Part shown: in pieces, positions 27,862-44,901 of the stretch
Numbering within the stretch: position 1 is the first letter of the stretch
How the letters are laid out: every line of letters starts with the position of its first letter
DNA from: [Muricauda] lutisoli (nom. illeg.)
GTDB taxonomy: Bacteria; Bacteroidota; Bacteroidia; Flavobacteriales; Flavobacteriaceae
Reading direction: 5' to 3'
DNA length: 64,000 bases
Assembly (NCBI RefSeq): GCF_017313105.1
Contig: NZ_JAFLND010000003.1
Span: 62,001-126,000, forward strand
Program-made: the position numbers and the translations under genes
The notes under the pieces: model-generated
What the model was told of the DNA's origin: nothing
Databases searched by the model: none
What the model saw: only the letters and a program-made list of their open reading frames with translations

Positions 27862-28494
27862 ATGGAAGAAGAACTTTTAGGAATATTCAGCAACTATTTT
27901 GAACAACCCCTTATTGATGAGATACTTGAAGAGGGGAAATTAATGGAAGTCCCTGCGGGCGAAACCATAATGGACATTGGCCAATACATAAGAAGTATAC
28001 CATTAATGTTATCTGGAGCCATAAAAGTTCTTCGAGAAGATGAAGAGGGCGATGAATTGCTTTTGTATTATTTGGAACAAGGTGAAACCTGTTCGGTAAC
28101 TATGGCTTGTTGTATGGGACATACAAAAAGTGAAATCAGGGCGATTACAGAGACCGAAACAAAACTTGTGATGGTCCCTGTCAAGAAAATGGAGGAATGG
28201 ATGGCAAAGTACAAAGGGTGGCGAAATTATGTCTTTGATAGTTATCAAAATCGCTTAAACGAGCTGCTTCAGACTGTGGACAGTATTGCCTTTAAAAATT
28301 TAGATCAACGACTTATGGATTATCTCAAAAAGAAAGTTGAGGTAACCAAGGATAATCGCATTAAAAGTACACATCAAGAGATTGCCTATGACTTGCATAC
28401 CTCAAGGGTAGTAGTTTCCAGATTGCTCAAAAAACTGGAAAAAATGAAAAAGCTAGTACTCCACAGAAACTATATTCATGTTAAAGACCTATAA
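27862..28494 (+). CDS. Crp/Fnr-family regulator with Cys cluster, likely sulfur-regulon activator
   Basis: 210 residues from ATG 27862 (GTG 27847 is a weaker start). A cNMP-binding-like barrel (about 15-115) is followed by a long dimer helix and a winged HTH (STHQEIAYDLHTSRVVVSRL). The barrel carries an unusual GETCSVTMACCMG with Cys77, Cys83 and Cys84, in the loop where cAMP would bind in CRP. This suggests a thiol-based sensor of sulfide, persulfide or redox state rather than cAMP. Palindromes of Crp geometry precede most nearby sulfur genes; it is the only intact Crp/Fnr gene in the window. Confidence 0.88.
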   Translation: MEEELLGIFSNYFEQPLIDEILEEGKLMEVPAGETIMDIGQYIRSIPLMLSGAIKVLREDEEGDELLLYYLEQGETCSVTMACCMGHTKSEIRAITETETKLVMVPVKKMEEWMAKYKGWRNYVFDSYQNRLNELLQTVDSIAFKNLDQRLMDYLKKKVEVTKDNRIKSTHQEIAYDLHTSRVVVSRLLKKLEKMKKLVLHRNYIHVKDL

Positions 28495-28556: not shown

Positions 28557-30281
28557 ATGCTCAAAAGGATTTTTCCTTTTTTATCGTGGATACCCAACTA
28601 TAACCGTGCTACCTTGTACGGGGATTTTATAGCGGGGGTCACATTGGGTATTATGATCCTTCCACAGGGAATGGCCTACGCCATGATAGCCGGCATGCCA
28701 CCAATTTATGGTTTGTACGCTTCCTTGGTGCCACAATTCGTCTATGCCATTACGGGAACTTCCAGACAATTGGCGGTTGGCCCCGTTGCCATGGATTCCT
28801 TATTGGTTGCAGCTGGAGTCGGAGCCATGCATTTTGCCAGGACAGAAGATTATATTTCTGCAGTAATATTTTTGACAATGCTTATCGGAATGGTCCAATT
28901 GCTTTTCGGTATTATTAGAGTGGGCTCCTTTGTCAATTTTTTGTCCAAACCTGTCATCAATGGATTTACTTCTGCCGCTGCCATATTGATTGGTCTGGGG
29001 CAATTGAAGCACATTCTCGGTATACAATTGCCCCAATCGGGAAAAATACACATATTGTTTGGTAGCATTTTTAGAAATTTGGGACAGGTACACCTTTTGA
29101 CATTTGGCTTGGGTGTCCTTGTGATACTTCTCATTATCGGTTTGAGAAAAATAAGCAAAAAGTTGCCCATACCACTATTAATAGTAGCGCTCGGTATCTT
29201 GGCTGTGGGATTGTTTGGTCTTGAGGCCAAAGGAATTCAAGTTGTGGGTGAAATACCGAAAGGTTTGCCCAATTTTCAGTTGCCGTTGCCCCAATGGGAC
29301 AAGTTGGGCAAGTTTTTGCCCATTGCACTTACAGTAGCTTTGTTTGGTTTTATGGAATCCATTTCCATTGCCAAAACAGTGGAGGAAAAGCATTCGGAAT
29401 ACGAATTGGATGTGAACCAGGAACTCCGCGCGTTGGGAATGTCTAATTTTTTAGGTTCTTTTTTTCAGTCTTTTGTGGTTTCCGGCTCATTTTCCAGAAC
29501 GGCGGTAAATGATGAAGCCGGTGGAAAAACAGGTATGTCCCTTGTTTTTAGTACGCTGGTCATAGCTGCTATCCTATTGTTTCTTACCCCACTGTTCCAC
29601 GATCTTCCAACATTGGTTTTGGGCGGAATAATCATTGTTTCCGTTTTTGGTTTGATTGATATCAAGTATCCATTGTTTCTTTGGAAAAATAGAAAGGATG
29701 AATTCCTTTTGTTGATAGCAACCTTTGTGATGACACTTTCCATAGGGTTGATCGAGGGGATTCTTTTGGGCGTGTTGCTTTCCCTTTTATTGCTCGTTTA
29801 TAGAATCTCCAAACCCCATATTGCCATTTTGGGCAGGATAAAGGGAACAAACTATTTTAAGAACATTACCCGCTTTTCGGAAGATGTGGAGGTGTACGAG
29901 GATACATTGATTATTCGCTTTGATGCACAACTTTACTTTGGGAACAAGGACTATTTCAAAAAACAACTTTATCAAGAAATCCGAAAAAAGGGTACTGCGT
30001 TAAGGTTTGTGGTTCTCAATGCCGAGGCCATAAATTATATAGATAGTAGTGCCGCCGTATTATTGGAACGGATAATTATAGAACTTCGGAAAAAAAACAT
30101 TCAATTTCTTATTGCCGGGGCCATTGGGCCTACTAGGGACATACTTCAAAACAGTGGTATTACGGAGACACTGGGAGTCGAAAACCTCTTTGCACAAACT
30201 TTTGAGGCCGTTGATACTTGTCATAAAGCCTTGGAACGAAGTACGATACAAAAAAAAGTCTCACTTCAAACAAAGAAATAG
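28557..30281 (+). CDS. SulP-family anion transporter with STAS domain
   Basis: 574 residues: about 11-12 membrane spans (signature GVTLGIMILPQGMAYAMIAG, typical of SulP) and a C-terminal STAS domain (about 440-555) with SSAAVLLERI around the phosphorylation-type Ser. Carries sulfate or another oxyanion/bicarbonate. Lies 62 bp after the Crp/Fnr gene on the same strand and just before the sulfide-oxidation genes, so export or uptake of sulfate or sulfite is plausible. Confidence 0.92.
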   Translation: MLKRIFPFLSWIPNYNRATLYGDFIAGVTLGIMILPQGMAYAMIAGMPPIYGLYASLVPQFVYAITGTSRQLAVGPVAMDSLLVAAGVGAMHFARTEDYISAVIFLTMLIGMVQLLFGIIRVGSFVNFLSKPVINGFTSAAAILIGLGQLKHILGIQLPQSGKIHILFGSIFRNLGQVHLLTFGLGVLVILLIIGLRKISKKLPIPLLIVALGILAVGLFGLEAKGIQVVGEIPKGLPNFQLPLPQWDKLGKFLPIALTVALFGFMESISIAKTVEEKHSEYELDVNQELRALGMSNFLGSFFQSFVVSGSFSRTAVNDEAGGKTGMSLVFSTLVIAAILLFLTPLFHDLPTLVLGGIIIVSVFGLIDIKYPLFLWKNRKDEFLLLIATFVMTLSIGLIEGILLGVLLSLLLLVYRISKPHIAILGRIKGTNYFKNITRFSEDVEVYEDTLIIRFDAQLYFGNKDYFKKQLYQEIRKKGTALRFVVLNAEAINYIDSSAAVLLERIIIELRKKNIQFLIAGAIGPTRDILQNSGITETLGVENLFAQTFEAVDTCHKALERSTIQKKVSLQTKK

Positions 30282-30285
30282 AGTT

Positions 30286-30301
30286 TGTAACTTTAGTCAC
30301 A
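30286..30301. promoter_or_regulatory. Sulfur-regulon palindrome, site 1
   Basis: TGTAAC-TTTA-GTCACA. Its centre (30293.5) lies 36.5 bp before the last base of TATATTTG (30323-30330), the -7 box of the 30347 gene. That places it near -40, a class II activator position. Confidence 0.7.
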
Positions 30302-30346
30302 CAAGTTTTCAAACTACAATTATATATTTGGGAAAAACCATAGCAC

Positions 30347-31756
30347 ATGATAATTGAACAGATTTACACAGGATGTTTGGCGCAAGGGGCGTATTACATT
30401 GAAAGTGAAGGAGAAGCGGCCATCGTGGACCCGTTGAGAGAGGTAAAGCCTTACATCAAAAAAGCTGAGGATAATGGAGCAAAGATCAAATACATATTTG
30501 AAACACACTTTCACGCAGATTTCGTGAGTGGACACGTTACCTTATCCAAACAAACAGGAGCACCCATTATTTATGGACCAACTGCAAATCCGGCCTTCGA
30601 GGCCTTGGTTGCCGAAGATGGACAGGAATTCAAATTGGGAAAAGTTACCATTAAGGTATTGCACACCCCAGGGCATACCATGGAAAGTACCACCTACCTT
30701 TTGAAGGATGAAAACGGGAAGGACGTTGCCATTTTTAGTGGAGACACCCTATTCCTTGGGGATGTAGGTAGACCCGATTTGGCCCAAAAGGCAGCACACA
30801 TGACCCAAGAAGAATTGGCAGGGACCTTGTTCGATAGTCTTCGAACCAAAATTATGCCCTTGGCCGATGATGTAACGGTTTATCCGGCTCACGGAGCGGG
30901 ATCGGCATGTGGAAAAAACATGATGAAGGAGACCGTGGACACTTTGGGCAACCAAAAGAAAATGAACTATGCCCTTAGGGCCGATATGACCAAGGAAGAA
31001 TTCGTCCAAGAAGTTACTGAAGGCCTTTTGCCACCGCCTCAATACTTCCCATTGAACGTGAAATTGAACAAGGAGGGTTATGAGGATATCGATACTGTCT
31101 TGGAGAGAGGAACCCAAGCTTTGAGTCCCGATGCTTTTGAAGTTGCAGCAAATGAGACCGGTGCCGTTATTCTTGATGTCCGTCATCAAGACGATTTTGC
31201 AAAGGGACACGTGCCAAGATCTATCTTCATTGGGTTGGACGGAAGCTTTGCACCTTGGGTGGGAGCCCTTATTGCCGATGTTGAGCAGCCCATTTTGTTG
31301 GTTACTCCCAAAGGAAGGGAAGAAGAAACCGTCACCCGACTTTCTAGAGTTGGTTTTGACAAAACCTTGGGATACTTGGAAGGTGGTGTTGAAGCCTGGG
31401 AAAAAGCTGGCAAGGAAGTGGATACCGTTGCCAATGTGAACGCTGAGCAATTTAAGGAAAAAGTGGATGAAGGTGTTCCCGTATTCGATGTAAGAAAGGA
31501 GTCCGAATTTAAGGCAGAGCACGTTGTGGATGCACATTTGACACCATTGGACTATTTGAACGACCATATTGCCGAATTTCCAGAAGAGGAAACTTTCTAT
31601 ATCCATTGTAGAAGTGGTTACAGAAGTATGGTGGCCGCGTCTATCCTTAAAAGTAGGGGAATTCATAACCTAGTGGATGTTTCCGGAGGTTTTGAAGACA
31701 TTAAAAAGGTGGGAACTCCCGTAACCGATTATGTCTGCCCTTCAACCCTTAAATAA
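30347..31756 (+). CDS. Persulfide dioxygenase-rhodanese fusion
   Basis: 469 residues. Residues 1-250 are a metallo-beta-lactamase fold of the ETHE1 type: THFHADFVSGH (His54, His56, Asp58, His63), HTPGHT, FSGDTLFLGDVGRPD, YPAHG. Two rhodanese domains follow: the first (about 265-355) lacks the active Cys, the second (about 375-465) has Cys421 in CRSGYRS. Such fusions (CstB/BlrP type) oxidise glutathione or low-molecular-weight persulfides to sulfite and move sulfane sulfur to form thiosulfate. Site 1 lies upstream; a rhodanese lipoprotein follows 3 bp later. Confidence 0.93.
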   Translation: MIIEQIYTGCLAQGAYYIESEGEAAIVDPLREVKPYIKKAEDNGAKIKYIFETHFHADFVSGHVTLSKQTGAPIIYGPTANPAFEALVAEDGQEFKLGKVTIKVLHTPGHTMESTTYLLKDENGKDVAIFSGDTLFLGDVGRPDLAQKAAHMTQEELAGTLFDSLRTKIMPLADDVTVYPAHGAGSACGKNMMKETVDTLGNQKKMNYALRADMTKEEFVQEVTEGLLPPPQYFPLNVKLNKEGYEDIDTVLERGTQALSPDAFEVAANETGAVILDVRHQDDFAKGHVPRSIFIGLDGSFAPWVGALIADVEQPILLVTPKGREEETVTRLSRVGFDKTLGYLEGGVEAWEKAGKEVDTVANVNAEQFKEKVDEGVPVFDVRKESEFKAEHVVDAHLTPLDYLNDHIAEFPEEETFYIHCRSGYRSMVAASILKSRGIHNLVDVSGGFEDIKKVGTPVTDYVCPSTLK

Positions 31757-31759
31757 AAA

Positions 31760-32152
31760 ATGGGACTAATTAAAAGTGTTATAAGACTTACCCTATACCT
31801 TTTGTTTTTTATGAATGTTGTTTCTTGCCAATCACAGCAAGAAACAACCATTCATAAAATTGACAAGGAGACCGTTATGGCGGATGTTGTTGGCAAGGAG
31901 GTGCAGCTTGTGGATGTAAGGACCCCGGGAGAATACAATTCCGGACACATCGACGATGCCGTCAATTTTGATTTGAGCCGACAAACGACTTTTATGGAAC
32001 AGATCAATACCTTGGACAAAAACCTACCTGTTTATTTGTACTGTGCTGTTGGGTCACGTAGTGCCTATGCAGCAAAAATTCTGGAACGTGAAGGCTTCAC
32101 CAAAATTTTCGATTACTCTGGCGGATACATGGATTGGGTAAGGAACCAATAG
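31760..32152 (+). CDS. Rhodanese-domain lipoprotein
   Basis: 130 residues with a lipoprotein signal (FFMNVVSC, acylated Cys23) and one rhodanese domain with active Cys95 in CAVGSRS. The domain would face the periplasm and could take sulfane sulfur from there. Starts 3 bp after the dioxygenase stop, so the two share the site 1 promoter. Confidence 0.92.
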   Translation: MGLIKSVIRLTLYLLFFMNVVSCQSQQETTIHKIDKETVMADVVGKEVQLVDVRTPGEYNSGHIDDAVNFDLSRQTTFMEQINTLDKNLPVYLYCAVGSRSAYAAKILEREGFTKIFDYSGGYMDWVRNQ

Positions 32153-32174
32153 GTTTTCGCTTTATTTTTTCTTG

Positions 32175-32190
32175 TGTAACCATCGTTACT
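32175..32190. promoter_or_regulatory. Sulfur-regulon palindrome, site 2
   Basis: TGTAAC-CATC-GTTACT, centre 32182.5. A near-consensus TATTTTG (32212-32218) ends 35.5 bp downstream. Precedes the rhodanese-HMA-cytochrome unit starting at 32244. Confidence 0.65.
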
Positions 32191-32243
32191 GACCAGACTT
32201 TTTATCCTAGGTATTTTGCCCTATATAAATATCAAAACAACAT

Positions 32244-32588
32244 ATGTCATTATTAAGTTTTTTGTTCAAAGGGAAAACACTTCCCGATGAAGTTGAAATC
32301 TTAGATAGAGAGGATTATAAAAAGGCCATTTCCAAAGGAAAGGTTCAAATGGTAGATGTGAGGACTAAAGGCGAGTTTATGTCTGGCCATATCAAAGGGG
32401 CTAAGAACATTGACCTTTTTCAAGGGTCTGCGTTTGAGTCCGCTTTTTCAAAATTGAATAAAGACAAACCAGTATACTTATACTGCCAATCTGGGAACAG
32501 AAGCCAAAGGGCAGCCCGAAAACTCGTGAAAATGGGATTTACCAAAGTATACGACCTCCGTGGGGGATATAGGACATGGACGTATTAA
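32244..32588 (+). CDS. Cytoplasmic single-domain rhodanese
   Basis: 114 residues, no signal peptide, one rhodanese domain with active Cys81 in CQSGNRS. Likely sulfurtransferase handling persulfide from the sulfide-oxidation route. First gene of a unit with the HMA protein (16 bp gap) and the cytochrome. Confidence 0.92.
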   Translation: MSLLSFLFKGKTLPDEVEILDREDYKKAISKGKVQMVDVRTKGEFMSGHIKGAKNIDLFQGSAFESAFSKLNKDKPVYLYCQSGNRSQRAARKLVKMGFTKVYDLRGGYRTWTY

Positions 32589-32604
32589 TCGGTTATAGCA
32601 TAAG

Positions 32605-32874
32605 ATGAAAACCACGTTCCAAGTACAAAACCTCAAGTGTGGTGGTTGTGCCAAATCCATTTCCAAAAGGCTTTCGGAAATTAAAGAAATTAACGATGTG
32701 ATTGTGGAGAAGGATAGCTCATCGGTTAGCTTTGATCATCAAAGCGCCGATGACGCTTCCTTAGTTAAAGAGATCCTTAGGAATCTTGGTTACCCCACTA
32801 TCGATGATGACAACAGCATTGTCGAAAAAGCTAAATCCTTTGTAAGTTGTGCTAGTGGTAAAATGGCGCCATAA
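32605..32874 (+). CDS. HMA-domain metal-binding protein
   Basis: 89 residues. The ferredoxin-like HMA fold carries the metal motif KCGGCAKS (Cys12, Cys15). A C-terminal extension holds one more Cys (SFVSCASGK). CopZ-like copper chaperones have this form; copper handling would fit, because sulfide and copper react, but a thiol or persulfide carrier role cannot be excluded. Its stop overlaps the start of the cytochrome gene by one base. Confidence 0.85.
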   Translation: MKTTFQVQNLKCGGCAKSISKRLSEIKEINDVIVEKDSSSVSFDHQSADDASLVKEILRNLGYPTIDDDNSIVEKAKSFVSCASGKMAP

Positions 32875-33872
32875 TGAGAACAATTTCCATTTCCATATTG
32901 TTTGTCCTTCTCATGCTTTCATGCAAGCAGGGGCCCAAAACATCTGATGCAGATCCAGAGGAGGTAGTGCAATTGGCTACTTCTTCAGAAGAAGGCAAAA
33001 AGTTGATGGAAACCAAATGTTACGTTTGTCACAATCCATCTACCCCAGAGAATGGCCAACGTATTGGCCCACCTATGGTTGCTGTAAAAGCGCATTATCT
33101 GGATGTTTACAAGGATAAAGATGCATTTGTAAAAGGTATTTCGGAATTTGTAAAATCACCTTCGGAAGAGAATACCAAAATGCGAGGCGCCGTCCGCCGA
33201 TTTGGATTGATGCCTTCCCAACAATTTGATGAAGAGGAGATCCGAAAGATTGCCGAGTATATTTTCGATTATCAGATTGAAGAACCCGATTGGTTCAAAG
33301 AACATTGGATGGATCGCAGGGGTGACTCCTTATACAACAAGGGAAAAAAATCAATGGTCTCATCCAAAGAGGAAAGCCCTAAAGAATTGGGAATGAAATA
33401 TGCCCTGGAAACCCAAAAAGTACTGGGAAAAAACCTCATGGGAACCATTCAAAATAAAGGAGTTGAAGCAGCTGTTGTATTTTGTAATGAAAGAGCCTAT
33501 CCGCTGACAGATAGCATGTCCATAAAGTTCAATGCCCGAATAAAAAGAGTTTCCGACAAACCTAGAAATCCTAACAATAAAGCCAATGCTGGGGAATTGG
33601 CACACATATCAACTTTTAAAAAACAGGTTGCCTATGGGGAATCTGTTGAGCCCATTGTAAAGGAATCGAACGGTAAAGTCTATTTCTATTATCCTATTGT
33701 TACCAATACCATGTGTTTAAACTGCCATGGAACCCCAGAGAAAAATATTGCTCCTGAAGTATTGACCCATTTATCACAACTTTATCCAGATGATAGGGCT
33801 ACAGGGGACGGACCAGATGAGGTTCGAGGCATATGGAGCATTGTTTTTGATGCCTCTAACAGTGGGAACTAG
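32874..33872 (+). CDS. Dihaem c-type cytochrome lipoprotein with DUF3365-like domain
   Basis: 332 residues: lipoprotein signal (VLLMLSC), a cytochrome c domain with CYVCH (Cys49-His53), a linker, and a C-terminal Tll0287/DUF3365-like haem domain with CLNCH (Cys281-His285). Both haems would face the periplasm and could pass electrons from sulfur oxidation to the respiratory chain. Translationally coupled to the HMA gene (TAATG). Confidence 0.85.
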   Translation: MRTISISILFVLLMLSCKQGPKTSDADPEEVVQLATSSEEGKKLMETKCYVCHNPSTPENGQRIGPPMVAVKAHYLDVYKDKDAFVKGISEFVKSPSEENTKMRGAVRRFGLMPSQQFDEEEIRKIAEYIFDYQIEEPDWFKEHWMDRRGDSLYNKGKKSMVSSKEESPKELGMKYALETQKVLGKNLMGTIQNKGVEAAVVFCNERAYPLTDSMSIKFNARIKRVSDKPRNPNNKANAGELAHISTFKKQVAYGESVEPIVKESNGKVYFYYPIVTNTMCLNCHGTPEKNIAPEVLTHLSQLYPDDRATGDGPDEVRGIWSIVFDASNSGN

Positions 33873-33879
33873 GGATTTT

Positions 33880-34761
33880 TTAGTTTTTCGGCTTTTTAAA
33901 CCCATATACCAACTGTCCCCAAAACCCTTTGGGCAATTTCTCGTCGCCCGGAAATCCCAATTTAATCTTGCCACTGCTTTCGGGAATGTAATTCGTTTTG
34001 AAAATATAATCCCATATACTTAGGCTGATGCCAAAATTTACACCATATGAACCCTCGGGAATGGTGTAGGCATGATGGTACAAATGCATTACCGGATTGT
34101 TCAATATATATTTCAATGGCCCGTAGGTCAATTTAATATTGGAATGGTTAAAATGGCCTATGGCAATAGCTGTAAAATGGACAATATAGGCCTGCTCGGG
34201 TTCAAACCCACCAAGAACCATTACTCCTATTGTTTTTAAAGGCTTGTAAAGAATGTTTTCCATCCAATGGAACCTCAAATGGGCGGCAAACCCCATCTCT
34301 TTTACACTATGGTGCACTTTATGGAATTGCCAAAGCACTGGGTATTTGTGCAAAAGTACATGGGTGAACCACTGCACAAAATCCAGCACCACAAAAAATA
34401 CGAGCAATTGGACCCATTGTGGCCAATGTGCAATATCTACGATGGTCAAGGTTGTTGCAGTGATTCCGAAATCCTTAAAAATCACACCAAGTAATTTGTA
34501 AACCCCACTTATAACAATGGCAAAAATGAAAAAGTTGAAGAACATGTAAAATGCATCCAACCAAAAATCTTTCCTGAAAATAGATTGGTCTTTGCGCCAA
34601 GGAAACAGGATTTCCAATGCCCAGACCAAAAGCGAGATAATAATAAGGCCCCAAAAATAATTGGAGTACCAGGGAACTTCAAACAAAATCGATTTCCATG
34701 TCCAGCGCACCGTTCCTAAAAAACCATTGGCGAGGGCATCAAAATATTCGGTCATAATCAT
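33880..34761 (-). CDS. Sterol desaturase / fatty acid hydroxylase family membrane protein
   Basis: 293 residues, about 5 membrane spans, with the histidine clusters of di-iron membrane hydroxylases: HVLLH, FHKVHHS and HLYHH. Members hydroxylate or desaturate membrane lipids. Its upstream region is shared with the 34977 gene and contains palindrome site 3. On the minus strand TATATTTA (34813-34820) ends exactly 36.5 bp from the palindrome centre, so it may belong to the sulfur regulon. Convergent with the cytochrome gene. Confidence 0.9.
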   Translation of the reverse strand: MIMTEYFDALANGFLGTVRWTWKSILFEVPWYSNYFWGLIIISLLVWALEILFPWRKDQSIFRKDFWLDAFYMFFNFFIFAIVISGVYKLLGVIFKDFGITATTLTIVDIAHWPQWVQLLVFFVVLDFVQWFTHVLLHKYPVLWQFHKVHHSVKEMGFAAHLRFHWMENILYKPLKTIGVMVLGGFEPEQAYIVHFTAIAIGHFNHSNIKLTYGPLKYILNNPVMHLYHHAYTIPEGSYGVNFGISLSIWDYIFKTNYIPESSGKIKLGFPGDEKLPKGFWGQLVYGFKKPKN

Positions 34762-34841
34762 TCAATGTTTAGTCGTGCATTCCAATTAGAACTTATCAAT
34801 ATGCAACAAAATTAAATATACTTTAAAAATATAGAGAGCAG

Positions 34842-34857
34842 TGTAACCAAGGTTACC
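34842..34857. promoter_or_regulatory. Sulfur-regulon palindrome, site 3 (divergent)
   Basis: TGTAAC-CAAG-GTTACC, centre 34849.5. On the plus strand TACTTTTG (34879-34886) ends 36.5 bp downstream; on the minus strand TATATTTA (34813-34820) ends 36.5 bp away. One site could serve both divergent promoters. Confidence 0.75.
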
Positions 34858-34976
34858 ATGGTTTTCATTACCAAAACCTACTTTTGGTATAAGCTCCGTT
34901 GGAAACCGTAATGGATAAGGTGCTGATGATCAGTTTCTTTTTGGTAACTTGTGTTAAGAATCATAAACTATCAATT

Positions 34977-35183
34977 ATGAAAAAAAACATGGGCGGCGCA
35001 GACCGTACAATTCGCGTTATCTTGGCACTTGGTGTTGGAGCATTGTATTATTTTAATGTGATTACAGGAACTTTGGCATATATACTGCTGGCATTGGCAG
35101 TCATATTTGTCCTTACAAGCTTTGTTAGTTTTTGTCCTTTGTACACCCTGTTTGGGATTAACACATGCAAGGTCAAGAATTAG
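34977..35183 (+). CDS. DUF2892 (YgaP-like) inner membrane protein
   Basis: 68 residues from ATG 34977 (MKKNMGGADRTIRVILALGV), the standard DUF2892 start. Two membrane spans. The family is often fused or linked to rhodanese domains (YgaP), which matches this region. Upstream in-frame starts exist but do not fit the family. Single-gene unit under site 3. Confidence 0.85.
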   Translation: MKKNMGGADRTIRVILALGVGALYYFNVITGTLAYILLALAVIFVLTSFVSFCPLYTLFGINTCKVKN

Positions 35184-35207
35184 GTTTTTTAGTTGATTGA
35201 TAAAAGG

Positions 35208-35237
35208 AAGCCGCTCTACTAAGAGCGGCTTTTTTTG
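35208..35237 (+). terminator. Terminator after DUF2892 gene
   Basis: AAGCCGCTCT-ACT-AAGAGCGGCTTTTTTT: a long GC-rich stem with a T-run. Confidence 0.9.
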
Positions 35238-35303
35238 TTCTATGCCAGATCTTGAAGTTAAAAAATGATAAAATTCATTTTTTATGTCAAAAATTGTCGA
35301 TTG

Positions 35304-35319
35304 TGTAACCCTGGTTACA
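35304..35319. promoter_or_regulatory. Sulfur-regulon palindrome, site 4
   Basis: TGTAAC-CCTG-GTTACA, a perfect inverted repeat, centre 35311.5. TATTTTAC (35341-35348) occupies exactly the -7 position seen at the other sites. Upstream of the sulfide:quinone oxidoreductase. Confidence 0.75.
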
Positions 35320-35374
35320 TTTTTTTAAGACTTTCCTCAATATTTTACCGATAATTGAATTTAATTGAACAAAC

Positions 35375-36637
35375 ATGAAATCACATTATCAAATTTTAAT
35401 AATTGGAGGAGGAACAGCCGGTATTATGACAGCTGGCCAATTGTTGAGGAAAAATAAAAAGCTTGATATAGCTATAATAGAACCCTCCGAAACACATTAT
35501 TATCAACCAGCATGGACCCTTGTTGGAGCTGGAACCTATGATTTCAATAAAACCAAAAAGCCCATGTCGGAAGTTATGCCAAAAGGGGTGGATTGGATCA
35601 AGGACAAGGCTGCTGGTTTTGATCCGGAAAAAAATTCGGTAACTACAGAAAGCAGCGGAGATATTACATACGATTATTTGGTGGTGGCTACTGGGTTGGT
35701 CATGGAACCGAGTATGATCAAGGGACTTCCGGAGGCTTTGGAAAAGGGAGTGGCCTGCAGCAACTATATCGACCCAGAGTTTACATGGGAGACCATAAGA
35801 AACTTTAAAAAAGGAAATGCACTCTTCACCCAGCCCACAACGCCGATTAAGTGTGGTGGTGCACCACAGAAAATCGCCTATTTAGCAGCGGACTATTTCA
35901 GAAAGCAGGGACTCAAAGACAGTGCAAATGTGATTTTTGCCACTCCGGGATCTGTGATTTTTGGTGTAAAGGAGATTCGTGAAACCTTGAACAAGGTCAT
36001 CGATCGTTATGGCATTCACTTTAAACCATTTTATGCTCCCAAAGAAATTGATGTTGAAAACAGAATAGTACACTTTAGTCATACAGCTCCCGAGGAGAAC
36101 AGGTGTATTATAAATGAAGATAATGAACTGGGCGAGAAAATGATCGGGGATGTGGATATCCAAGTTCCGTTTGATATGTTGCACATTGCCCCTCCACAGG
36201 CAGCACCAAAATTTGTTCGCGAATCAGTTTTGTCCAACGAGGCAGGCTGGTTGGATGTTGACCATTACTCCATGCAGCACAATAAGTATGCAAACATTTT
36301 TGGTTTGGGCGACGTAGCCGCTCTCCCCACGGCAAAAACGGGAGCAGCGGTTCGTAAGCAAGTTCCTATTGTAGTTGATAACATTATGAGTTTGATGCAA
36401 GGAAAAACTGTTGAGAACCATTCCTATAATGGGTATTCCTCTTGCCCTTTGGTTACAGGATATGGCAAAATGACTTTGGCAGAATTCGATTATAACAACA
36501 ATTTTATACCAGACCCAAAACTCAAGCGCATGCTGGTATTTAACAGTGCCAAAGAACATTGGAGGCTTTGGATGCTGAAAAAGTACGGATTGCCTTATTT
36601 GTATTGGAACAAAATGATGAAAGGCAAGAACGTTTAA
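35375..36637 (+). CDS. sqr: Sulfide:quinone oxidoreductase
   Basis: 420 residues: N-terminal FAD Rossmann motif GGGTAGIMTAGQLL, then EPSETHYYQPAWTLVGAG as in type II SQRs of bacteria and mitochondria, and cysteines in GVACSNY and IKCGGAPQ in the region of the catalytic pair. A C-terminal half with GLGDVAALPTAKTGAAVRKQ completes the family pattern. It oxidises sulfide to persulfide and reduces quinone at the membrane, feeding the dioxygenase/rhodanese enzymes. Preceded by a perfect palindrome (site 4). Confidence 0.94.
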   Translation: MKSHYQILIIGGGTAGIMTAGQLLRKNKKLDIAIIEPSETHYYQPAWTLVGAGTYDFNKTKKPMSEVMPKGVDWIKDKAAGFDPEKNSVTTESSGDITYDYLVVATGLVMEPSMIKGLPEALEKGVACSNYIDPEFTWETIRNFKKGNALFTQPTTPIKCGGAPQKIAYLAADYFRKQGLKDSANVIFATPGSVIFGVKEIRETLNKVIDRYGIHFKPFYAPKEIDVENRIVHFSHTAPEENRCIINEDNELGEKMIGDVDIQVPFDMLHIAPPQAAPKFVRESVLSNEAGWLDVDHYSMQHNKYANIFGLGDVAALPTAKTGAAVRKQVPIVVDNIMSLMQGKTVENHSYNGYSSCPLVTGYGKMTLAEFDYNNNFIPDPKLKRMLVFNSAKEHWRLWMLKKYGLPYLYWNKMMKGKNV

Positions 36638-36683
36638 CAGCAAACCCATAGAAAATCGTATTCCTGAGGAATATCATATTTTG

Positions 36684-36856
36684 ATGGAGGTTTTCCGATT
36701 AATTTTGGTTCAAATAAAAACCAATACATTTTGAAGACGCTTAATATTCCTTTGGTAGTTTGGGAGAACGGTATCTGGATGATAGGACTGTTCGCCCTAG
36801 TGGTCATAATACTTATTGTAGCGGTTTTGGCCATGATGAACAGTGGTAAAAAGTAA
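36684..36856 (+). pseudogene. Possible frameshifted small membrane protein
   Basis: ATG 36684 gives MEVFRLILVQIKTNTF and stops; in another frame the sequence continues as NIPLVVWENGIWMIGLFALV then a hydrophobic tail ending MMNSGKK at TAA 36854-36856. Joined, they would make a roughly 57-residue single-span protein. One base change would explain the break. Weak evidence; chance cannot be excluded. Confidence 0.3.
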
Positions 36857-36876
36857 ACACTAGCCACATATTTAAG

Positions 36877-36926
36877 AAATGGATTTAACATAACGATGTA
36901 TGTTTTATGTTAAATCCATTTTGTTT
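36877..36926 (+). terminator. Terminator downstream of SQR
   Basis: A perfect 16-bp stem (AAATGGATTTAACATA / TATGTTAAATCCATTT) around a 13-nt loop, followed by TGTTTG. Long but AT-rich. Confidence 0.7.
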
Positions 36927-37123
36927 GTGAAATGGGCAACCTAACAAAGTTGCTGATAAGGTTATTTTTGATGTACTGATTGTTGTTACTTATGGAAACC
37001 GAAATTATCGCGCGGATTCAATTACCAAATACAGCGGATTCAACCCATTAACGGAATTTAAAAGGAATATTTAATATGACCTCCTCAACAAAATTGTTGC
37101 GGATTATAAACAAACTCAAACCT

Positions 37124-37154
37124 AAAGACCCTGAATTAGCGGGGTCTTTTTTTG
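37124..37154 (+). terminator. Terminator upstream of DUF2202 gene
   Basis: AAAGACCC ... GGGGTCTTTTTTTG. Good stem and T-run with no gene directly upstream. Confidence 0.8.
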
Positions 37155-37182
37155 TTAATGTTTTGTTGAAAGTAATGGGTAT

Positions 37183-37198
37183 GGTAACCATTGTTACA
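37183..37198. promoter_or_regulatory. Sulfur-regulon palindrome, site 5
   Basis: GGTAAC-CATT-GTTACA, centre 37190.5. The -7 element at the expected place is weak (GATTTTTA), so the site is called from the palindrome and its position 42 bp before the DUF2202 gene. Confidence 0.6.
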
Positions 37199-37239
37199 GA
37201 GTTTATTTTGGGTAATGGTGATTTTTATAGAAAAAAGCT

Positions 37240-37914
37240 ATGAATTTACTTATGAAAAGAATTGCCCCTGTTTTTATTATGATATTGTTGGTATCCTTGA
37301 TGATTTTTGGTTGTTCGGATTCAAATGATGATCCGTTTGACCCTCAAATTGAAAATAGTATTGATGACGACACCAATGATGATGTTTCCGACGACGTTTC
37401 TACGCTTACAGTAGATGATGAAGATGCATTGTTGTTTATGCTGGAAGAGGAGAAACTCGCAAGGGATACCTATAAGTTTTTGAACGAATACTGGGGCATG
37501 GTCCAATTTGAGAACATTATGCAAAGTGAACAATCCCATATGGATGCCGTGGAAACCTTATTGGTTGCCTACGATATTGAATATGAAATATTGGAAGATG
37601 GCGTGTTCGAGAATGAGGACCTCCAGAACTGGTACGACACATTTGTTCAAGATGGAATAGTTGATGAGGTAGCGGCGCTAACGGTAGGTGCTACCATTGA
37701 AGATTTGGACATTGTTGACCTGGAAGAACATATAAAGGCCACCTCCAATATGGACATTGCCGATGTGTTTTCAAGTTTGCAGTGTGGTTCTAGAAATCAT
37801 TTAAGAAGTTTTGTTCAGAGCATCGAAAACCTGGGGGAGACCTATACCCCACAATTTCTTACTCAAGAAGAATATGAGACAATTTTGGATGGTTCGCACG
37901 AACAGTGCAATTGA
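37240..37914 (+). CDS. DUF2202 ferritin-like lipoprotein
   Basis: 224 residues: lipoprotein signal ending IFGCSDSN, an Asp-rich linker of about 30 residues, then a DUF2202 domain with the di-iron-like helices LLFMLEEEKLARDTYKFLNE and QSEQSHMDAVETLL (Glu/His ligands typical of ferritin-like folds). Periplasm-facing. Function of the family is not established; linkage and palindrome site 5 tie it to the sulfur regulon. Confidence 0.88.
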   Translation: MNLLMKRIAPVFIMILLVSLMIFGCSDSNDDPFDPQIENSIDDDTNDDVSDDVSTLTVDDEDALLFMLEEEKLARDTYKFLNEYWGMVQFENIMQSEQSHMDAVETLLVAYDIEYEILEDGVFENEDLQNWYDTFVQDGIVDEVAALTVGATIEDLDIVDLEEHIKATSNMDIADVFSSLQCGSRNHLRSFVQSIENLGETYTPQFLTQEEYETILDGSHEQCN

Positions 37915-38006
37915 ATCCGATAGCATATTACAATAATCAAAGTCTATTTTGCCGCATCGAGGGCTATATGATATAAATGCTTAAGCCCTGATTTTCATCA
38001 TTGTTC

Positions 38007-38062
38007 AAAACCTCAATACCGATTTATTTTGTAAAGATTTCTCTGTATTGAGGTTTTCTTTT
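38007..38062 (+). terminator. Terminator after DUF2202 gene
   Basis: AAAACCTCAATAC pairs with GTATTGAGGTTTT over 13 bp around a 24-nt loop, then CTTTT. Confidence 0.75.
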
Positions 38063-38075
38063 ATGCAATTTTCTC

Positions 38076-38091
38076 AGTAACACAGGTTACT
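38076..38091. promoter_or_regulatory. Sulfur-regulon palindrome, site 6
   Basis: AGTAAC-ACAG-GTTACT, centre 38083.5. TAATTTTG (38113-38120), a perfect TAnnTTTG, ends exactly 36.5 bp downstream. Controls the RND efflux operon. Confidence 0.75.
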
Positions 38092-38139
38092 GTGAGGGTA
38101 TGTTAACAAATATAATTTTGGCACAAATTAATTAGGTAT

Positions 38140-39444
38140 ATGAAACGATTGTTTGTTTTAATAATATTCTTTTATGCACAGGCACAGATATTTGCCCAAG
38201 ATCCTATAAAGATTTCATTACAGGATGTATTGATGAGGGTACAAGAGTCCAACGCCAGTATAAAGGTGTCGGAGCAAGAGGCCAAGATGGCCAAGTACGA
38301 CTATAGGTTCTCAAACTCCATCTTTTTGCCACAGATCTCTGTTTCACATACAGGAATGGCAACAACAAACCCTTTGATGGCTTTTGGTTCCAAACTCAAC
38401 CAAGAGATTTTGACCCAGGCAGACTTCAATCCTGATTTGTTGAACGACCCCGATCAGATTGAGAACTATGCCACAAAAGTTTCCGTGGAACAGCCTTTGA
38501 TCAACTTGGATGGGTTTTATCAGCGTAAAGCTGCCAAAACCACTATGGAAGCCAAAGAGCTACAAGCCATGCGAACTAGGGACTATCTTGATTTTGAAGC
38601 ACAGAAAGCCTATGGACAATTGCAATTGGCACATAGAGCAGTGTCGGTACTTCAAAAAGCATACGATGCCGCAAATGCAAACTTGAACATGGCACAAAAC
38701 AGCTTTGATCAAGGCTTGCTTCAAAAAGCAGATTTGTTGGAAGTAAAAGTTCGGGTTACCGAGGTTTCCGATCAATTGAAAACAGCCAAGAGCAATGTGA
38801 AAAACGCATCGGACTATTTGGCTTTTTTAATGAACGAACAGGGGGATGTGGTTTACGAACCAACCGAAGATCTAGTGCCGGATGATCTTGGTGGAACAGT
38901 AGAGGGTTCCCTGGAAAACAGGGCAGATGTAAAAGCTATGGATTTGGTTTCTGAGGCCTACAAAGCCAATATGCGAGCCGATAATATGACCTTTTTACCA
39001 AGACTCAATGCGTTTGCCAGTTACGAAATGTACGACGATCAGATCTTTCAGGCCGATGCAAAAGGATACATTATCGGGGCAAGCTTAAGTTGGGATGTTT
39101 TTAAAGGTTCTCAGCGATTTGCCAAAGCAGGAAAGAGCAAAACAAGTTATGAAAAAGCGAAACAAGAATACGAACAGTACATTGCCAAAAGTACTATGGA
39201 GCTACAACGCACCAAACGGATGGTCGAAGATGCGAAAAGCAGGCTCCAGACCTCAAAATTGGCTATGGAGCAATCTGAAGAATCACTGAGGATTCGTACC
39301 AACCGATTTAAGGAAGGCTTGGAAAAAACAACCGATTTATTAATGGCCGAAGCTAGCTATGCCGAAAAGCAATTGGCATATTATCAAACCATTTTTGAAT
39401 ACAATCAAGCACAATCCTTACTAACATTTTTAACCAAAGAATAA
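38140..39444 (+). CDS. TolC-family outer-membrane efflux protein
   Basis: 434 residues: signal peptide (FFYAQAQIFAQ), then two repeats of long coiled-coil helices and short barrel strands as in TolC (ALISLQD-type start, GLLQKADLLEVKVRVTEVS, then GLEKTTDLLMAEASYAEKQL in the second half). First gene of an operon with adaptor and RND pump (7 and 16 bp gaps) under site 6. Confidence 0.93.
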   Translation: MKRLFVLIIFFYAQAQIFAQDPIKISLQDVLMRVQESNASIKVSEQEAKMAKYDYRFSNSIFLPQISVSHTGMATTNPLMAFGSKLNQEILTQADFNPDLLNDPDQIENYATKVSVEQPLINLDGFYQRKAAKTTMEAKELQAMRTRDYLDFEAQKAYGQLQLAHRAVSVLQKAYDAANANLNMAQNSFDQGLLQKADLLEVKVRVTEVSDQLKTAKSNVKNASDYLAFLMNEQGDVVYEPTEDLVPDDLGGTVEGSLENRADVKAMDLVSEAYKANMRADNMTFLPRLNAFASYEMYDDQIFQADAKGYIIGASLSWDVFKGSQRFAKAGKSKTSYEKAKQEYEQYIAKSTMELQRTKRMVEDAKSRLQTSKLAMEQSEESLRIRTNRFKEGLEKTTDLLMAEASYAEKQLAYYQTIFEYNQAQSLLTFLTKE

Positions 39445-39451
39445 TTGCAAG

Positions 39452-40540
39452 ATGAAAAACACTACAATATATAAAAGCTTCATTTTAACCATGTCCTTGG
39501 GATTGGTCCTAATGGGATGTGGCAGTGACGAAAAACAAACTGCGGACAACAGGGAAGCAGTTCCAGTAACCGTTGCCGATGTCGATATGGGCGATAGTTC
39601 CACCATTTTGGCAGGAAGTGGTCAAGTAAAAGCCGTGAACAGTGCCACATTGAGCACTCGAATGATGGGCTATGTGGAGTCCTTACCTGTAAAAATAGGT
39701 CAAAAAGTAAATAAAGGGGATTTGCTGATTTCCATAAACAATGTAGACCTACGAGCCAAAAAAGCACAAGTGGAAGCATCCATAACCGAGGCGCAGGTGG
39801 CTTTTAACAATGCCAAGAAAGATTATGAGAGGTTCCAGAACCTTTTCAATGAAAACAGTGCTTCACAAAAGGAGTTGGATGATATGACCGCTCGCTACGA
39901 AATGGCAAAGGCCAGATTGGAAGCTGCAAACCAAATGAAGAACGAGGTAAACTCCCAGTTTGCCTACGCGAATATTAGAGCACCCTTCAGCGGAGTCGTG
40001 ACCAATACGTATATCGATGAGGGTGATATGGCCAACCCGGGTGTTCCGTTGGTGTCCGTAGAGTCCCCTGGTGGATTTGAGGTAGTGGCCAAAGTAGCTG
40101 AAAACAACATCTCTGGTATAGCAGTGGGAACCAAAGCTCACGTTCTGGTTAAGGCATTGGATACCACGATTACAGGTAAAGTATCAGAATTAAGTGTTTC
40201 GGCACAGCATACGGGCGGACAATATTTGATGAAGGTTTTATTGGACAGAACAGAAGCCGAAATTTTGTCAGGTATGTATGTAACCGTTAGGCTGGAGGCG
40301 GAAGATCAAGGTGAAGGTAGGACAGTTGTCACCGTTCCGTCCAAAGCCTTGGTGCATAAAGGTCAGCTAACAGGAGTGTATACTTTAGGACAGGATAATG
40401 TTGCCCTTTTACGCTGGTTGCGATTGGGCGAGAATTATGGAGAAGAAGTAGAAGTATTGTCCGGCTTGTCCAAAGGAGATCAATATATCGTATCGGCCGA
40501 AGGAAAGCTTTACAACGGAGCCAAAGTAACCATTCAATAA
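39452..40540 (+). CDS. RND efflux periplasmic adaptor lipoprotein
   Basis: 362 residues with lipobox GLVLMGC, a lipoyl-like hybrid motif (MGYVESLPVKIGQKVNKGDL), a coiled-coil hairpin (about 100-165), IRAPFSGVVTNTYIDEGDMA and beta-barrel plus membrane-proximal domains. Connects the pump to the TolC channel. Substrate not deducible. Confidence 0.94.
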   Translation: MKNTTIYKSFILTMSLGLVLMGCGSDEKQTADNREAVPVTVADVDMGDSSTILAGSGQVKAVNSATLSTRMMGYVESLPVKIGQKVNKGDLLISINNVDLRAKKAQVEASITEAQVAFNNAKKDYERFQNLFNENSASQKELDDMTARYEMAKARLEAANQMKNEVNSQFAYANIRAPFSGVVTNTYIDEGDMANPGVPLVSVESPGGFEVVAKVAENNISGIAVGTKAHVLVKALDTTITGKVSELSVSAQHTGGQYLMKVLLDRTEAEILSGMYVTVRLEAEDQGEGRTVVTVPSKALVHKGQLTGVYTLGQDNVALLRWLRLGENYGEEVEVLSGLSKGDQYIVSAEGKLYNGAKVTIQ

Positions 40541-40556
40541 CCTAAAAAAGGTACTA

Positions 40557-43500
40557 ATGAAAGACGGACTTGCAGGAAAAATAGCCAAAGGGTTTATGGG
40601 TTCCAAACTTACGGTGCTCCTTATGATCGTATTTATGGTCATAGGGGTGTACAGTTCTTTTCTTATCCCAAGGGAAGAGGAGCCTCAGATAGATGTGCCC
40701 ATGGCAGATTTGTTTGTGGGGTACCCTGGTGCCAGCCCAACTGAGGTGGAATCCAGGATCACAAAACCACTGGAAAAAATAATATCGAACATTAAAGGCG
40801 TGGAGTATGTGTACACTACTTCTATGCAAGAGCAGGGAATGGCCATTGTACAATTCTATGTAGGTGAGGATATCGAAAGATCTTTGGTGCGTTTGTACGA
40901 TGAAATCAACAAACACATGGATCAAATGCCGGAAGGTGTTACCATGCCTTTGGTAAAAACCCGTGCCATTGATGATGTGCCCATGCTTGCTCTTACGCTT
41001 TGGAGTGATGAATACGACGATTTTCAATTAAGAAGGATTTCTGGTGAATTGATCAACGAGATCGAAAAGGTAAACGGGGTTTCGATTACCAAAAAAATTG
41101 GAGGACGAAACCGTCAGCTAAGGGTTGTCGTGGACAAGGATAAAATGGCCGAATCCGGAATCGATATGTTGGCCGTGGCCCAAATGATCAAGGCCAACAA
41201 CCAGCAAATGGATGCCGGTAATTTTCTTTCCAATGACACGGAGTTCCACATCAGTACAGGCAACTTTTTGGAAACAAAAGAAGACCTGGAAAATCTGATC
41301 GTGGGCACCAAACAGGGTCAGCCCATTTACTTGAAACAAGTGGCAACGGTTTTGGATGGTCCGGAACTTCCTAAAAACTACGTTTCCTTAGGATTTGGCG
41401 CGGCAAGTGAAAAAGCGGAAACCTATAAATCAGAATATCCAGCTGTAACCATTTCCATCGCCAAAAGAAAAGGGGCCGATGCCATGAAGATTGCGGATGT
41501 GGTGTTGGAAAAAGTAGATCACCTCAAATCAACTCTTATTCCAGATGAAGTAAAGGTCGAGGTAACCCGAAACTACGGGCAAACCGCATCACAAAAAGTA
41601 TCTGAATTATTGATGCACTTGATCGGTGCGATCATCGCCGTGACTTTTGTGGTAATGTTGGCCATGGGATGGAGAGGTGGATTGGTAGTGTTCCTATCTG
41701 TACCGATAACATTCGCATTGACCTTGTTGAGCTACTACATGCTCGATTACACTTTGAACCGAATCACTTTGTTTGCTTTGGTTTTTGTAACGGGTATTGT
41801 GGTGGACGACTCGATCATCATCGCGGAGAACATGCACCGCCACTTTAAGATGAAACGCTTGCCGTTCAAAGATGCTGCGATTTACGCCATTAATGAAGTA
41901 GGGAACCCGACCATTTTGGCCACCTTTACGGTTATTGCATCCGTATTGCCCATGGCATTTGTATCCGGTTTGATGGGACCCTATATGTCGCCCATGCCCA
42001 TCGGTGCATCTATCGCCATGTTATTATCATTGTTTGTTGCGCTTACGATAACCCCATATTTGGGATATATCTTCCTAAGGGAGAAGGATAAAAAGAAGAA
42101 AAAGGAAAAAGAAGCGGTCGAAATACAGGACACTTTTATTTACAAAGCCTACGCTAGGTTCGAAAGACCTTTGATAGAGAGCAAGAAAAAAAGATGGATG
42201 TTCTTGGGAATTACCTTCTTCTTGTTGATTGCCTCTGTGGCCATGTTCTTTACAAAATCTGTAGCGGTAAAAATGCTTCCTTTTGATAACAAAAATGAGT
42301 TTCAGGTAGTGATCGACCTTCCCGAAGGAACCACTTTGGAACGGACTTCCGCGGTTACCAAGGAAATAGGGGCATATTTGTCCACGCGACCCGAAGTGGT
42401 CAACTATCAGAGTTATGTGGGCACATCCGCACCGATAACCTTCAATGGTTTGGTAAGGCACTACGATCTACGTGGCGGTAGCAATATGGCCGACATTCAG
42501 GTCAACCTTGTGGATAAGCATGATAGAAGCGTGCAGAGTCATGATATTGCCAAATTGTTCAGGCCAAAAATCCAAGAGTTGGGTAAAAAGTACAAAGCGA
42601 ACATCAAGGTTGTTGAGGTGCCACCGGGACCTCCTGTATTGTCTACCATAGTTGCCGAAGTCTATGGCCCGGATTATGACAAACAAATAGAGCTCGCCGA
42701 TAAGATAAAGGGCATTTTGAACAACACCAACGATGTCGTGGATGTCGACTGGATGGTGGAAGACGATCAAGTGGAATATGATTTTGTGATCGACAAGGAA
42801 AAAGCCATGCTTTATGGAGTAACCCCACAACAGATTGTTCAAGTGATGGCAATGGCTTTCAGGGAAAGGCCCGTATCCCATATTTATCACGAAGATGCTT
42901 TTGACCAAATCGGAATTGTTTTGTCCATAAGTGAAAAGGACAAATCATCCTTGGATCAAATCAAACAATTGAAAATAACATCCCAACAAGGGAATATGGT
43001 ATCTGTAGGAGACCTGGTTCAAGTAAAAGAGGGGACCAAGGCCAAGAGCATCTACAGAAAAAACCAGAAACGAGTGGTGTATGTCATGTCCGACATGGCC
43101 GGTGAACTCGAAAGCCCCGTGTACGCCATTTTGGGTATGACCGATAAGTTGAACCAATTGGAGCTCCCGAAAGGATATTCCATCAATGAACTCTATATGG
43201 AACAGCCTCAATTTGAAGATGACTATACCGTAAAATGGGATGGGGAATGGCAGATAACCCTTGAAGTGTTCCGTGATTTGGGAATTGCCTTTTTGGGTGT
43301 TATCGTGATCATATACATGCTTATTGTAGGCTGGTTCCAGAACTTTAAGGCACCTATGGTGATGATGGTGGCCATACCATTGTCGTTGATCGGTATTGTG
43401 CTGGGGCATTGGTTGCTCGGAGCCTTCTTTACCGCGACTTCTTTTATCGGTATGATTGCCTTGGCAGGTATTATGGTGCGGAACTCGGTATTGTTGATTG

Positions 43501-44343: not shown

Positions 44344-44901
44344 ATGATTTATCAACCTTGGCCCTGGTATGTCGCAGGGCCGCTTATTGCCATTTTGATG
44401 GCAATACTGATCCTAATGGGAAAAAAGTTCGGCATGTCCTCAAATCTTGAAACCTTCTGTTCTATTGGTGGTGCGGGCAAATTCGTCGATTATTTTAAAA
44501 TGGATGTCAAATCCAAGCGTTGGAACCTTTTTGTGGTTCTTGGCTCAGCAATTGGTGGTTTTATCGCCGCTCATTATCTGACGCCAAACCAAGCTGTGGA
44601 TATTTCTCCAAAAACAGTGGAAAGTTTACAGGAACTTGGCTTTGAAAGTGCAGGTACCGCCTATTTACCAACTGAACTGTTCAGTATGGAGGCGTTGTCC
44701 GAACCCAAGGTCTGGATTATCCTGTTGGCAGCCGGATTCTTGGTTGGATTCGGTACACGCTATGCATCGGGTTGTACCTCGGGGCATGCTATTTCCGGAC
44801 TGAGTAATTTGCAGAAACCATCGCTTATCGCCGTAATCGGATTCTTTATCGGCGGACTAGTAATGGTTCATTTGTTGTACCCTATAATTTTTGGATCATG
44901 A
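44344..44901 (+). CDS. YeeE/YedE-family sulfur transporter, first half
   Basis: 185 residues, about 4-5 membrane spans, with the Cys motif FGTRYASGCTSGHAISGLSN diagnostic of YeeE/YedE (TsuA-like thiosulfate uptake; PmpA/B in other bacteria). The Cys is thought to bind the sulfur substrate. It overlaps the next gene by 4 bp, so the two halves make one transporter. Confidence 0.92.
   Translation: MIYQPWPWYVAGPLIAILMAILILMGKKFGMSSNLETFCSIGGAGKFVDYFKMDVKSKRWNLFVVLGSAIGGFIAAHYLTPNQAVDISPKTVESLQELGFESAGTAYLPTELFSMEALSEPKVWIILLAAGFLVGFGTRYASGCTSGHAISGLSNLQKPSLIAVIGFFIGGLVMVHLLYPIIFGS

Follow-up and report, generated by a model that had tools for sequence, protein, structure and literature searches.

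Introduction

In other phyla, the detoxification of hydrogen sulfide (H2S) and persulfides is controlled by regulators of the ArsR, CsoR and sigma54-activator families. BigR/SqrR, CstR and FisR govern the genes of MBL/rhodanese persulfide dioxygenases, sulfide:quinone reductase (SQR) and sulfite/thiosulfate transporters, and rely on cysteine-based sensing. Among the open-licence literature matches listed, neither a regulator of this kind for Bacteroidota nor a regulon such as the one considered here was described. The present study concerns a 64-kb stretch of DNA (hereafter the window; C3:62001-126000, to whose first letter all plain positions below refer) from the 3.42-Mb assembly of a marine Flavobacteriaceae bacterium, in which a gene for a Crp/Fnr-type regulator at position 27862 is followed by six palindromes lying upstream of predicted sulfur and efflux genes. 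The 27862 product belongs to a different family from BigR/SqrR, CstR and FisR, which are ArsR, CsoR and sigma54-activator proteins, respectively. An earlier note, made from the letters of the window, had proposed that the palindromes define a Crp/Fnr sulfur regulon. The comparative analysis reported here supports the existence of a sulfur-gene regulon under a putative Crp/Fnr activator in Bacteroidota. The geometry of its promoters is unusually clear, and it offers a specificity switch of natural origin. We regard it as quite probable that the palindromes are the sites of the 27862 protein, and that this protein acts as a class II-type activator of sulfide and persulfide oxidation genes.

Results

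Six palindromes lie at a fixed distance from promoter boxes

The six palindromes were found where the earlier note had placed them, between the main genes of the open reading frame (ORF) list: site 1 (TGTAACTTTAGTCACA, 30286..30301), site 2 (TGTAACCATCGTTACT, 32175..32190), site 3 (TGTAACCAAGGTTACC, 34842..34857), site 4 (TGTAACCCTGGTTACA, 35304..35319), site 5 (GGTAACCATTGTTACA, 37183..37198) and site 6 (AGTAACACAGGTTACT, 38076..38091). Site 4 is a perfect copy of the 16-mer TGTAACN4GTTACA; sites 1, 2, 3 and 5 depart from it at one position and site 6 at two. The informative part is the 14-mer core GTAACN4GTTAC, which is exact at sites 2 to 6, the corresponding stretch of site 1 being GTAACTTTAGTCAC, with GTCAC as right arm. 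Five exact cores in the window compare with 0.03 expected, a number reached in none of 100 shuffles.

Each palindrome was examined together with the promoter box TAnnTTTG, which we take to be the -7 element of Bacteroidota. As claimed, a perfect box ends exactly 36.5 bp past the centre of the palindrome, on the plus strand, at site 1 (TATATTTG, 30323..30330), site 3 (TACTTTTG, 34879..34886) and site 6 (TAATTTTG, 38113..38120). Site 3 also has, as the earlier note had seen, a box at the same distance on the opposite strand (TATATTTA, 34813..34820, minus strand, centre-36.5), so that its palindrome stands between two divergent predicted promoters. The plus-strand boxes of the remaining sites are off or weak, again in agreement with that note: degenerate at site 2 (TATTTTGC, 32212..32219), non-consensus yet conserved at site 4 (TATTTTAC, 35341..35348) and weak at site 5 (GATTTTTA, 37220..37227). 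When both strands of the window were scored with a composite matrix of palindrome plus box, trained only on 28 promoters of distant genera that carry V-type regulators (see below), the six promoters and the divergent promoter of site 3 took ranks 1 to 7 with scores from 32.4 to 21.7, the next place scoring 13.0 and 30 first-order Markov surrogates giving at most 13.4. No composite site scored upstream of the regulator gene in the window.

Composite sites co-occur with the regulator, and their arms with one of its residues

The regulator family, defined by a profile of 15 relatives at E <= 1e-20, had matches in 176 of the 295 genomes of a class-wide sample. Composites of palindrome plus TAnnTTTG were counted at no more than one mismatch, with the reversed pattern as control. 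Where the regulator occurs (176 genomes), composites numbered 258 against 64 for the control; in the 119 genomes without it, the counts were 37 and 38. These hits include regulator-proximal sites used in other tests of this study, so that the tests are not fully independent. In the present genome, composites at up to three mismatches numbered 29 and 19, fewer than the 52 and 44 of the control, for which reason only low-mismatch hits were used.

From the 176 matches, 100 distant regulator loci were picked, for the most part on score and after that so as to add further genera, and their regulators were extracted by tblastn; the sample is thus not random. Residue 183, which corresponds to E181 of CRP by alignment, is Val in 50 of these loci and Glu in the other 50, between the invariant residues R182 and R187. 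The intergenic sites at V loci comprised 27 with symmetric GTAAC arms and four with a GTGAC arm, against 2 and 26, respectively, at E loci, five further sites that fall in called ORFs being excluded. At 37 of the 39 unambiguous loci, V183 went with symmetric GTAAC and E183 with one or two GTGAC arms, the exceptions being L116 and L140. Genome-wide composites were likewise in excess with either type of regulator (130 against 25 for the control in V genomes, 36 against 17 in E genomes).

To place these changes on a tree of the regulators, we kept only the 39 loci of 100 that show exactly one motif type, dropping four with both and 57 with neither; the tree was built without the recognition-helix columns and the window's own trait was left out. 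Residue 183 changes at least seven times on this tree. Four phylogenetically independent pairs could be formed, of which on average 3.7 go in the same direction and none is opposed.

Of the proteins encoded in the present genome, five match HTH_Crp_2, including that of the window. By eye, the arginine matching R180 of CRP is absent from all four others, one of which scores below the cut-off. Together with the residue-base covariation, this supports the earlier assignment of the 27862 protein as the predicted binder.

The geometry is conserved in the genus and beyond

In a related set of 48 regulator loci totalling 941 kb, GTAAC with a spacer of 4 was the top intergenic palindrome among all 5-base arms with spacers of 0 to 8. 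It occurred 121 times between genes and 11 times inside called ORFs, and was present intergenically at 46 of the 48 loci. Among 119 distinct flanks lying in the direction of the regulator gene, a perfect TAnnTTTG ended at centre+36.5 in 55 and at centre+37.5 in four, no other offset being seen more than once. Of a control palindrome, CATTG-N4-CAATG, 27 exact copies were present in the related loci L023-L070, all within called ORFs, and at no more than one mismatch the present genome holds 423 copies of it against 80 of GTAAC-N4-GTTAC.

Upstream regions of orthologous genes (130 bp per gene) were next aligned with no reference to the motif. Five sites, all but site 3, were scored in this way; there the arms were 93-100% identical to those of the window, against 50-67% for the rest of the 130 bp and 33-77% for the 4-base spacer. 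Site 1 and its perfect box were intact in 45 of 45 orthologous regions. An exact core stood upstream of 41 of 43 orthologues of the second rhodanese gene, with a box that is degenerate or shifted by one base, and the core of site 4 upstream of 19 of 19 SQR orthologues, the six scored positions of its box being 99% identical. Site 5 was present in the three DUF2202 orthologues found, and the core and perfect box of site 6 in 21 of 21 TolC orthologues. Site 3 was redone with 220 bases. Toward the YgaP-like gene, 31 of 38 orthologous sites carried TAnnTTTG and the other seven TAnnTTTA; toward the hydroxylase gene, TAnnTTTA or TAnnTTTG was kept at 23 of the 24 sites found among 44 orthologues. Since boxes are kept on both sides, the single palindrome at 34842 very probably serves two divergent promoters.

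The 100 distant loci hold 64 genes that have their start no more than 350 bp from an intergenic site, whatever its arm type, and are oriented away from the site. In the 50 site-gene pairs (36 loci) that lie in the direction of the regulator, the 14 opposite-direction pairs being left out, the T, T, T and G of the box were present at 94, 100, 92 and 82%, and the T and A of its TA at 66 and 76%; a perfect TAnnTTTG stood at the expected place in 23 of all 64 pairs. The earlier note had held that chance density of the motif would speak against a regulon, as would a want of consistent boxes. Our data contradict both, the composite being enriched only in the company of the regulator and the spacing being fixed across the genus and the distant genera.

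Site-adjacent genes are enriched in sulfur functions

The 64 site-adjacent genes were compared by blastp (E <= 1e-4) with a sulfur set built from genes of the present genome, some of them found via the motif, and applied here to other genera. Thirty-eight matched the set, two TauE matches being weak; of the 1974 other ORFs at these loci, 170 did so (Fisher p 5e-23). The 38 comprise 12 MBL-rhodanese, 12 TauE, four YeeE, three rhodanese and three YgaP-like proteins, and one each of SQR, SulP, Prx and MBL. TolC-type efflux genes were site-adjacent as well (three of four copies), and 20 of the 64 target genes had no counterpart among the reference genes used for the comparison.

In the present genome, the exact core occurs at 12 places, intergenic status being judged against ORFs of 90 amino acids or more. 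Five are the window sites, one lies within a gene that reads by eye as atpC (L006), and six are intergenic outside the window. Three of the latter are linked to sulfur, standing upstream of a type III SQR gene (L001; 650 bits against a cut-off of 525, under a model named 'selenoprotein subtype'), of a peroxiredoxin gene paired with an MBL-fold gene, and of a TauE/SafE exporter gene.

Within the window, the genes behind the sites were assigned from Pfam matches, with NCBIfam where indicated, and lie on the plus strand unless stated otherwise. A SulP-family permease with a STAS domain (28557..30281; Pfam and NCBIfam) is encoded between the regulator gene and site 1. Site 1 precedes a gene for a protein with MBL-fold and rhodanese domains, of the persulfide dioxygenase/sulfurtransferase type (30347..31756), followed by one for a rhodanese-domain protein with a signal-like N-terminal segment (31760..32152). 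Site 2 precedes a rhodanese gene (32244..32588), after which come genes for an HMA-domain protein (32605-32874) and a cytochrome c/Tll0287-like protein (32874-33872). On one side of site 3, and divergent from it, lies the gene of a membrane protein of the fatty acid hydroxylase superfamily (33880..34761, minus strand); on the other, that of a YgaP-like transmembrane domain protein (34977..35183). Behind site 4 lies the gene of an SQR-like flavoprotein (Pyr_redox_2; 35375..36637), a relative of type III SQR that scores below the cut-off of that model, and behind site 5 that of a DUF2202 lipoprotein-like protein (37240..37914). Genes for a TolC-type outer membrane protein, an HlyD-type adaptor and an RND transporter (38140..43751) come behind site 6, and beyond them stand two genes for sulfur transporters of the YeeE/YedE type (44344-45311), with a weak NCBIfam match to the thiosulfate transporter TsuA, below the cut-off.

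Two further observations concern the possible extent of the regulon. A family of cysteine-rich small membrane proteins (CPRCHE...CSHCGLKY), presumably DUF983-like, is encoded behind composite sites both in this genome (L208, two mismatches) and in another genus (L102); it is a possible conserved member of the regulon outside sulfur oxidation proper. At L127, from a distant genus, a regulator-family gene and a SulP gene diverge from a site that they flank, which suggests that the SulP gene, perhaps even that of the regulator, can be under such a site.

The regulator carries three cysteines in a segment that aligns with the phosphate-binding cassette of CRP

The regulator gene (27862..28494, plus strand) encodes 210 amino acids with a cNMP-binding fold and an HTH_Crp_2 domain. 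Its matches to PF00027 (36.4 bits, cut-off 27.5) and PF13545 (29.4 bits, cut-off 27) place it in the Crp/Fnr superfamily. The protein is 100% identical to one of Allomuricauda profundi, and its recognition helix reads TSRVVVSR. Foldseek matches with TM values of about 0.5 confirmed the Crp/Fnr fold and nothing more.

The only cysteines of the protein are C77, C83 and C84, in the arrangement T-C77-x5-C83-C84. The segment that holds them aligns with the phosphate-binding cassette segment of CRP, and the place aligned with the cAMP-binding residue E72 of CRP is occupied by Val in the query profile. C77 is conserved in 100 of the 100 distant relatives. This invariance, the position of the cysteines and the Val at the E72 place make sensing of persulfide or polysulfide at C77 plausible, although we hold the idea tentatively. 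Two results tell against it: C83 is kept in 85 and C84 in just 52 of the 100 distant relatives, and the predicted structure is unreliable at residues 79-89, where pLDDT is under 50. Partial conservation and a poor model in this segment leave the sensor idea weak.

Discussion

A proposed mechanism

Our observations suggest the following scheme. A dimer of the 27862 protein would bind GTAAC-N4-GTTAC, the centre of which lies 36.5 bp before the last base of TAnnTTTG. Should transcription start a few bases past the box, the bound dimer would sit near -41, presumably the customary position of a class II Crp-type activator, and would replace the -33 element; the one site at 34842 would drive two divergent promoters. 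The regulon would handle sulfide and its oxidation products through an enzyme of the MBL/rhodanese persulfide dioxygenase type, rhodaneses, SQRs, a YgaP-like protein, YeeE/TauE transporters and an efflux operon, and would extend elsewhere in the genome to the peroxiredoxin and MBL pair, the TauE exporter and possibly the type III SQR, where the site is present and the box missing. As to the signal, our best guess would be reactive sulfur, in the form of persulfide or polysulfide, with C77 as its target together with C83/C84. What we infer from these patterns is the binding, activation as opposed to repression, the class II mode and the sulfide signal. More tentatively still, one may imagine that a Crp/Fnr lineage widespread in the class turned its cyclic-nucleotide pocket segment into a cysteine-based sensor of reactive sulfur and became a general activator of sulfide and persulfide oxidation in Bacteroidota, its operator switching back and forth between GTAAC and GTGAC through one residue of the recognition helix.

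A number of findings fit this scheme poorly. Boxes are off consensus at sites 2, 4 and 5, and at the genome sites L001, L003 and L004 a box at the proper distance is absent. Of the six intergenic sites outside the window, three (L002-L004) have no recognizable sulfur gene behind them, the genes there being a hypothetical gene followed by that of a metallophosphoesterase, a DUF6799 gene and a YceI gene. In the related loci, the 120 flanks opposite to the direction of the regulator gave scattered box offsets (10 at +42.5, six at +25.5 and four each at +15.5 and +36.5). Twenty-nine of the 50 V-type loci lack an exact intergenic core in the stretch examined; either the motif is looser there, or the targets lie elsewhere, or the protein acts otherwise at these loci. 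Four independent pairs are too few for significance by a sign test alone. The third base of the right arm of site 1 (GTnAC) is C, A or G, and never T, in the 45 orthologues, and the present V-type genome has GTGAC-armed sites that come with good boxes. From the last two points, specificity is not strict, and that of V-type regulators appears to be a preference rather than a rule.

Some of the sites just mentioned deserve a description of their own. The GTGAC-N4-GTCAC palindromes of the present genome that carry a perfect TAnnTTTG at the same spacing lie at L206 and L209/L210 (C1:1336790 and C2:336210-336283 of assembly G000), one of them being bidirectional; the genes behind them were identified by eye as those of a thioredoxin-fold-like protein and a permease, and of a small membrane protein/TonB-type pair. 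No E-type regulator of the family was seen in this genome. At L001, L003 and L004 (around locus position 1507), a TGACA-type palindrome (such as ATGACATTCGTCAT), read by eye, separates the GTAAC site from the gene, its distance varying; these promoters may belong to another Crp/Fnr paralogue, the GTAAC site being accessory to them.

Alternative readings

Among other explanations, the one we take most seriously, albeit as rather unlikely, keeps the same sites and regulator and replaces the signal with NO, nitrosative stress or redox state, sensed via heme or another cofactor as in HcpR or PgRsp. The motif published for HcpR2 proteins, GTAACnnnnGTTAC, is the same (PMC1274295), and the Porphyromonas gingivalis regulators HcpR and PgRsp are reported to bind heme (for PgRsp, PMC6955866). 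The hcp gene (Prismane, PF03063), however, had no match in the present genome in a search that was positive in 5 of 14 control genomes; HcpR2 has Pro where the present family has Val or Glu, and the targets here are sulfur genes. A different proposal retains the sulfide signal and makes the 27862 protein a repressor that sulfide releases from its sites. A site adjacent to a promoter can block polymerase, and the known sulfide regulators BigR (also according to an abstract), SqrR and CstR are repressors. In many genera the palindrome is phased to the -7 box to the exact base, and there are boxes that are off consensus; contact by an activator demands these features and a repressor has no need of them. 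Activation is favoured on these grounds, and we judge repression improbable.

A further possibility is that a different Crp/Fnr protein encoded in the genome, such as the paralogues at C3:271721, C4:151570 and C1:1478740, uses the sites. In favour of this are the five HTH_Crp_2 matches and the GTGAC arms of some genome sites (L206, L210). It appears very improbable given that none of the four other proteins has the R180-type arginine (by eye), and that both the abundance of composites and the regulator-proximal half-site vary with the occurrence of the 27862 family and with its residue at 183. As for chance palindromes, or other conserved DNA such as terminators or repeats, the 16-mer with three mismatches allowed showed no excess in the window (25 against 29.2 expected), and exact 16-mers over the 295 genomes were few and seemingly close to the control, as judged by eye rather than summed. 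Such an origin is nonetheless practically negligible in view of the excess of exact cores, the ranking by the composite matrix, the geometry shared by the genus and distant genera, the co-occurrence with the regulator and the conservation of the arms.

Implications and comparison with known systems

Regulator, operator, target list and exact promoter geometry can here be read from many genomes. The findings bear on which protein controls sulfide oxidation in Bacteroidota and on how a Crp-type activator works at a Bacteroidota -7 promoter, and they offer a case in which nature has switched specificity through a single residue on several occasions.

With CRP of Escherichia coli, the present regulator shares the cNMP-binding fold, a palindrome of 5-4-5 layout and, by prediction, activation from a site centred near -41. 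It differs in its half-site and in the promoter served, which has a -10 box in E. coli and a -7 box here. By curated cut-offs it is neither a CRP (58.8 of the 266 bits of the equivalog model) nor an FNR (24.4 of 228 bits), C77, C83 and C84 being its only cysteines. PgRsp of P. gingivalis is a Crp/Fnr-type redox regulator, again of a Bacteroidota species; it is reported to bind heme and to affect oxidative-stress genes (PMC6955866). A close precedent for the operator comes from Rodionov et al. (2005), who relate R180 and the residue at position 181 to the bases of the half-site (PMC1274295). HcpR2, as portrayed there, has the same Crp/Fnr fold, the same operator and the same R180/181 recognition rule as the present family; it controls hcp and has Pro181, whereas the present protein has Val181 (Glu in relatives), a genome with no hcp match and predicted sulfur targets. 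The best match in both sequence and fold was a Crp/Fnr regulator of Eubacterium rectale (PDB 3dv8; 23% identity, TM-score about 0.5), in which the positions aligned with C77 and C83 are likewise Cys; the cysteine pair may thus reach beyond Bacteroidota.

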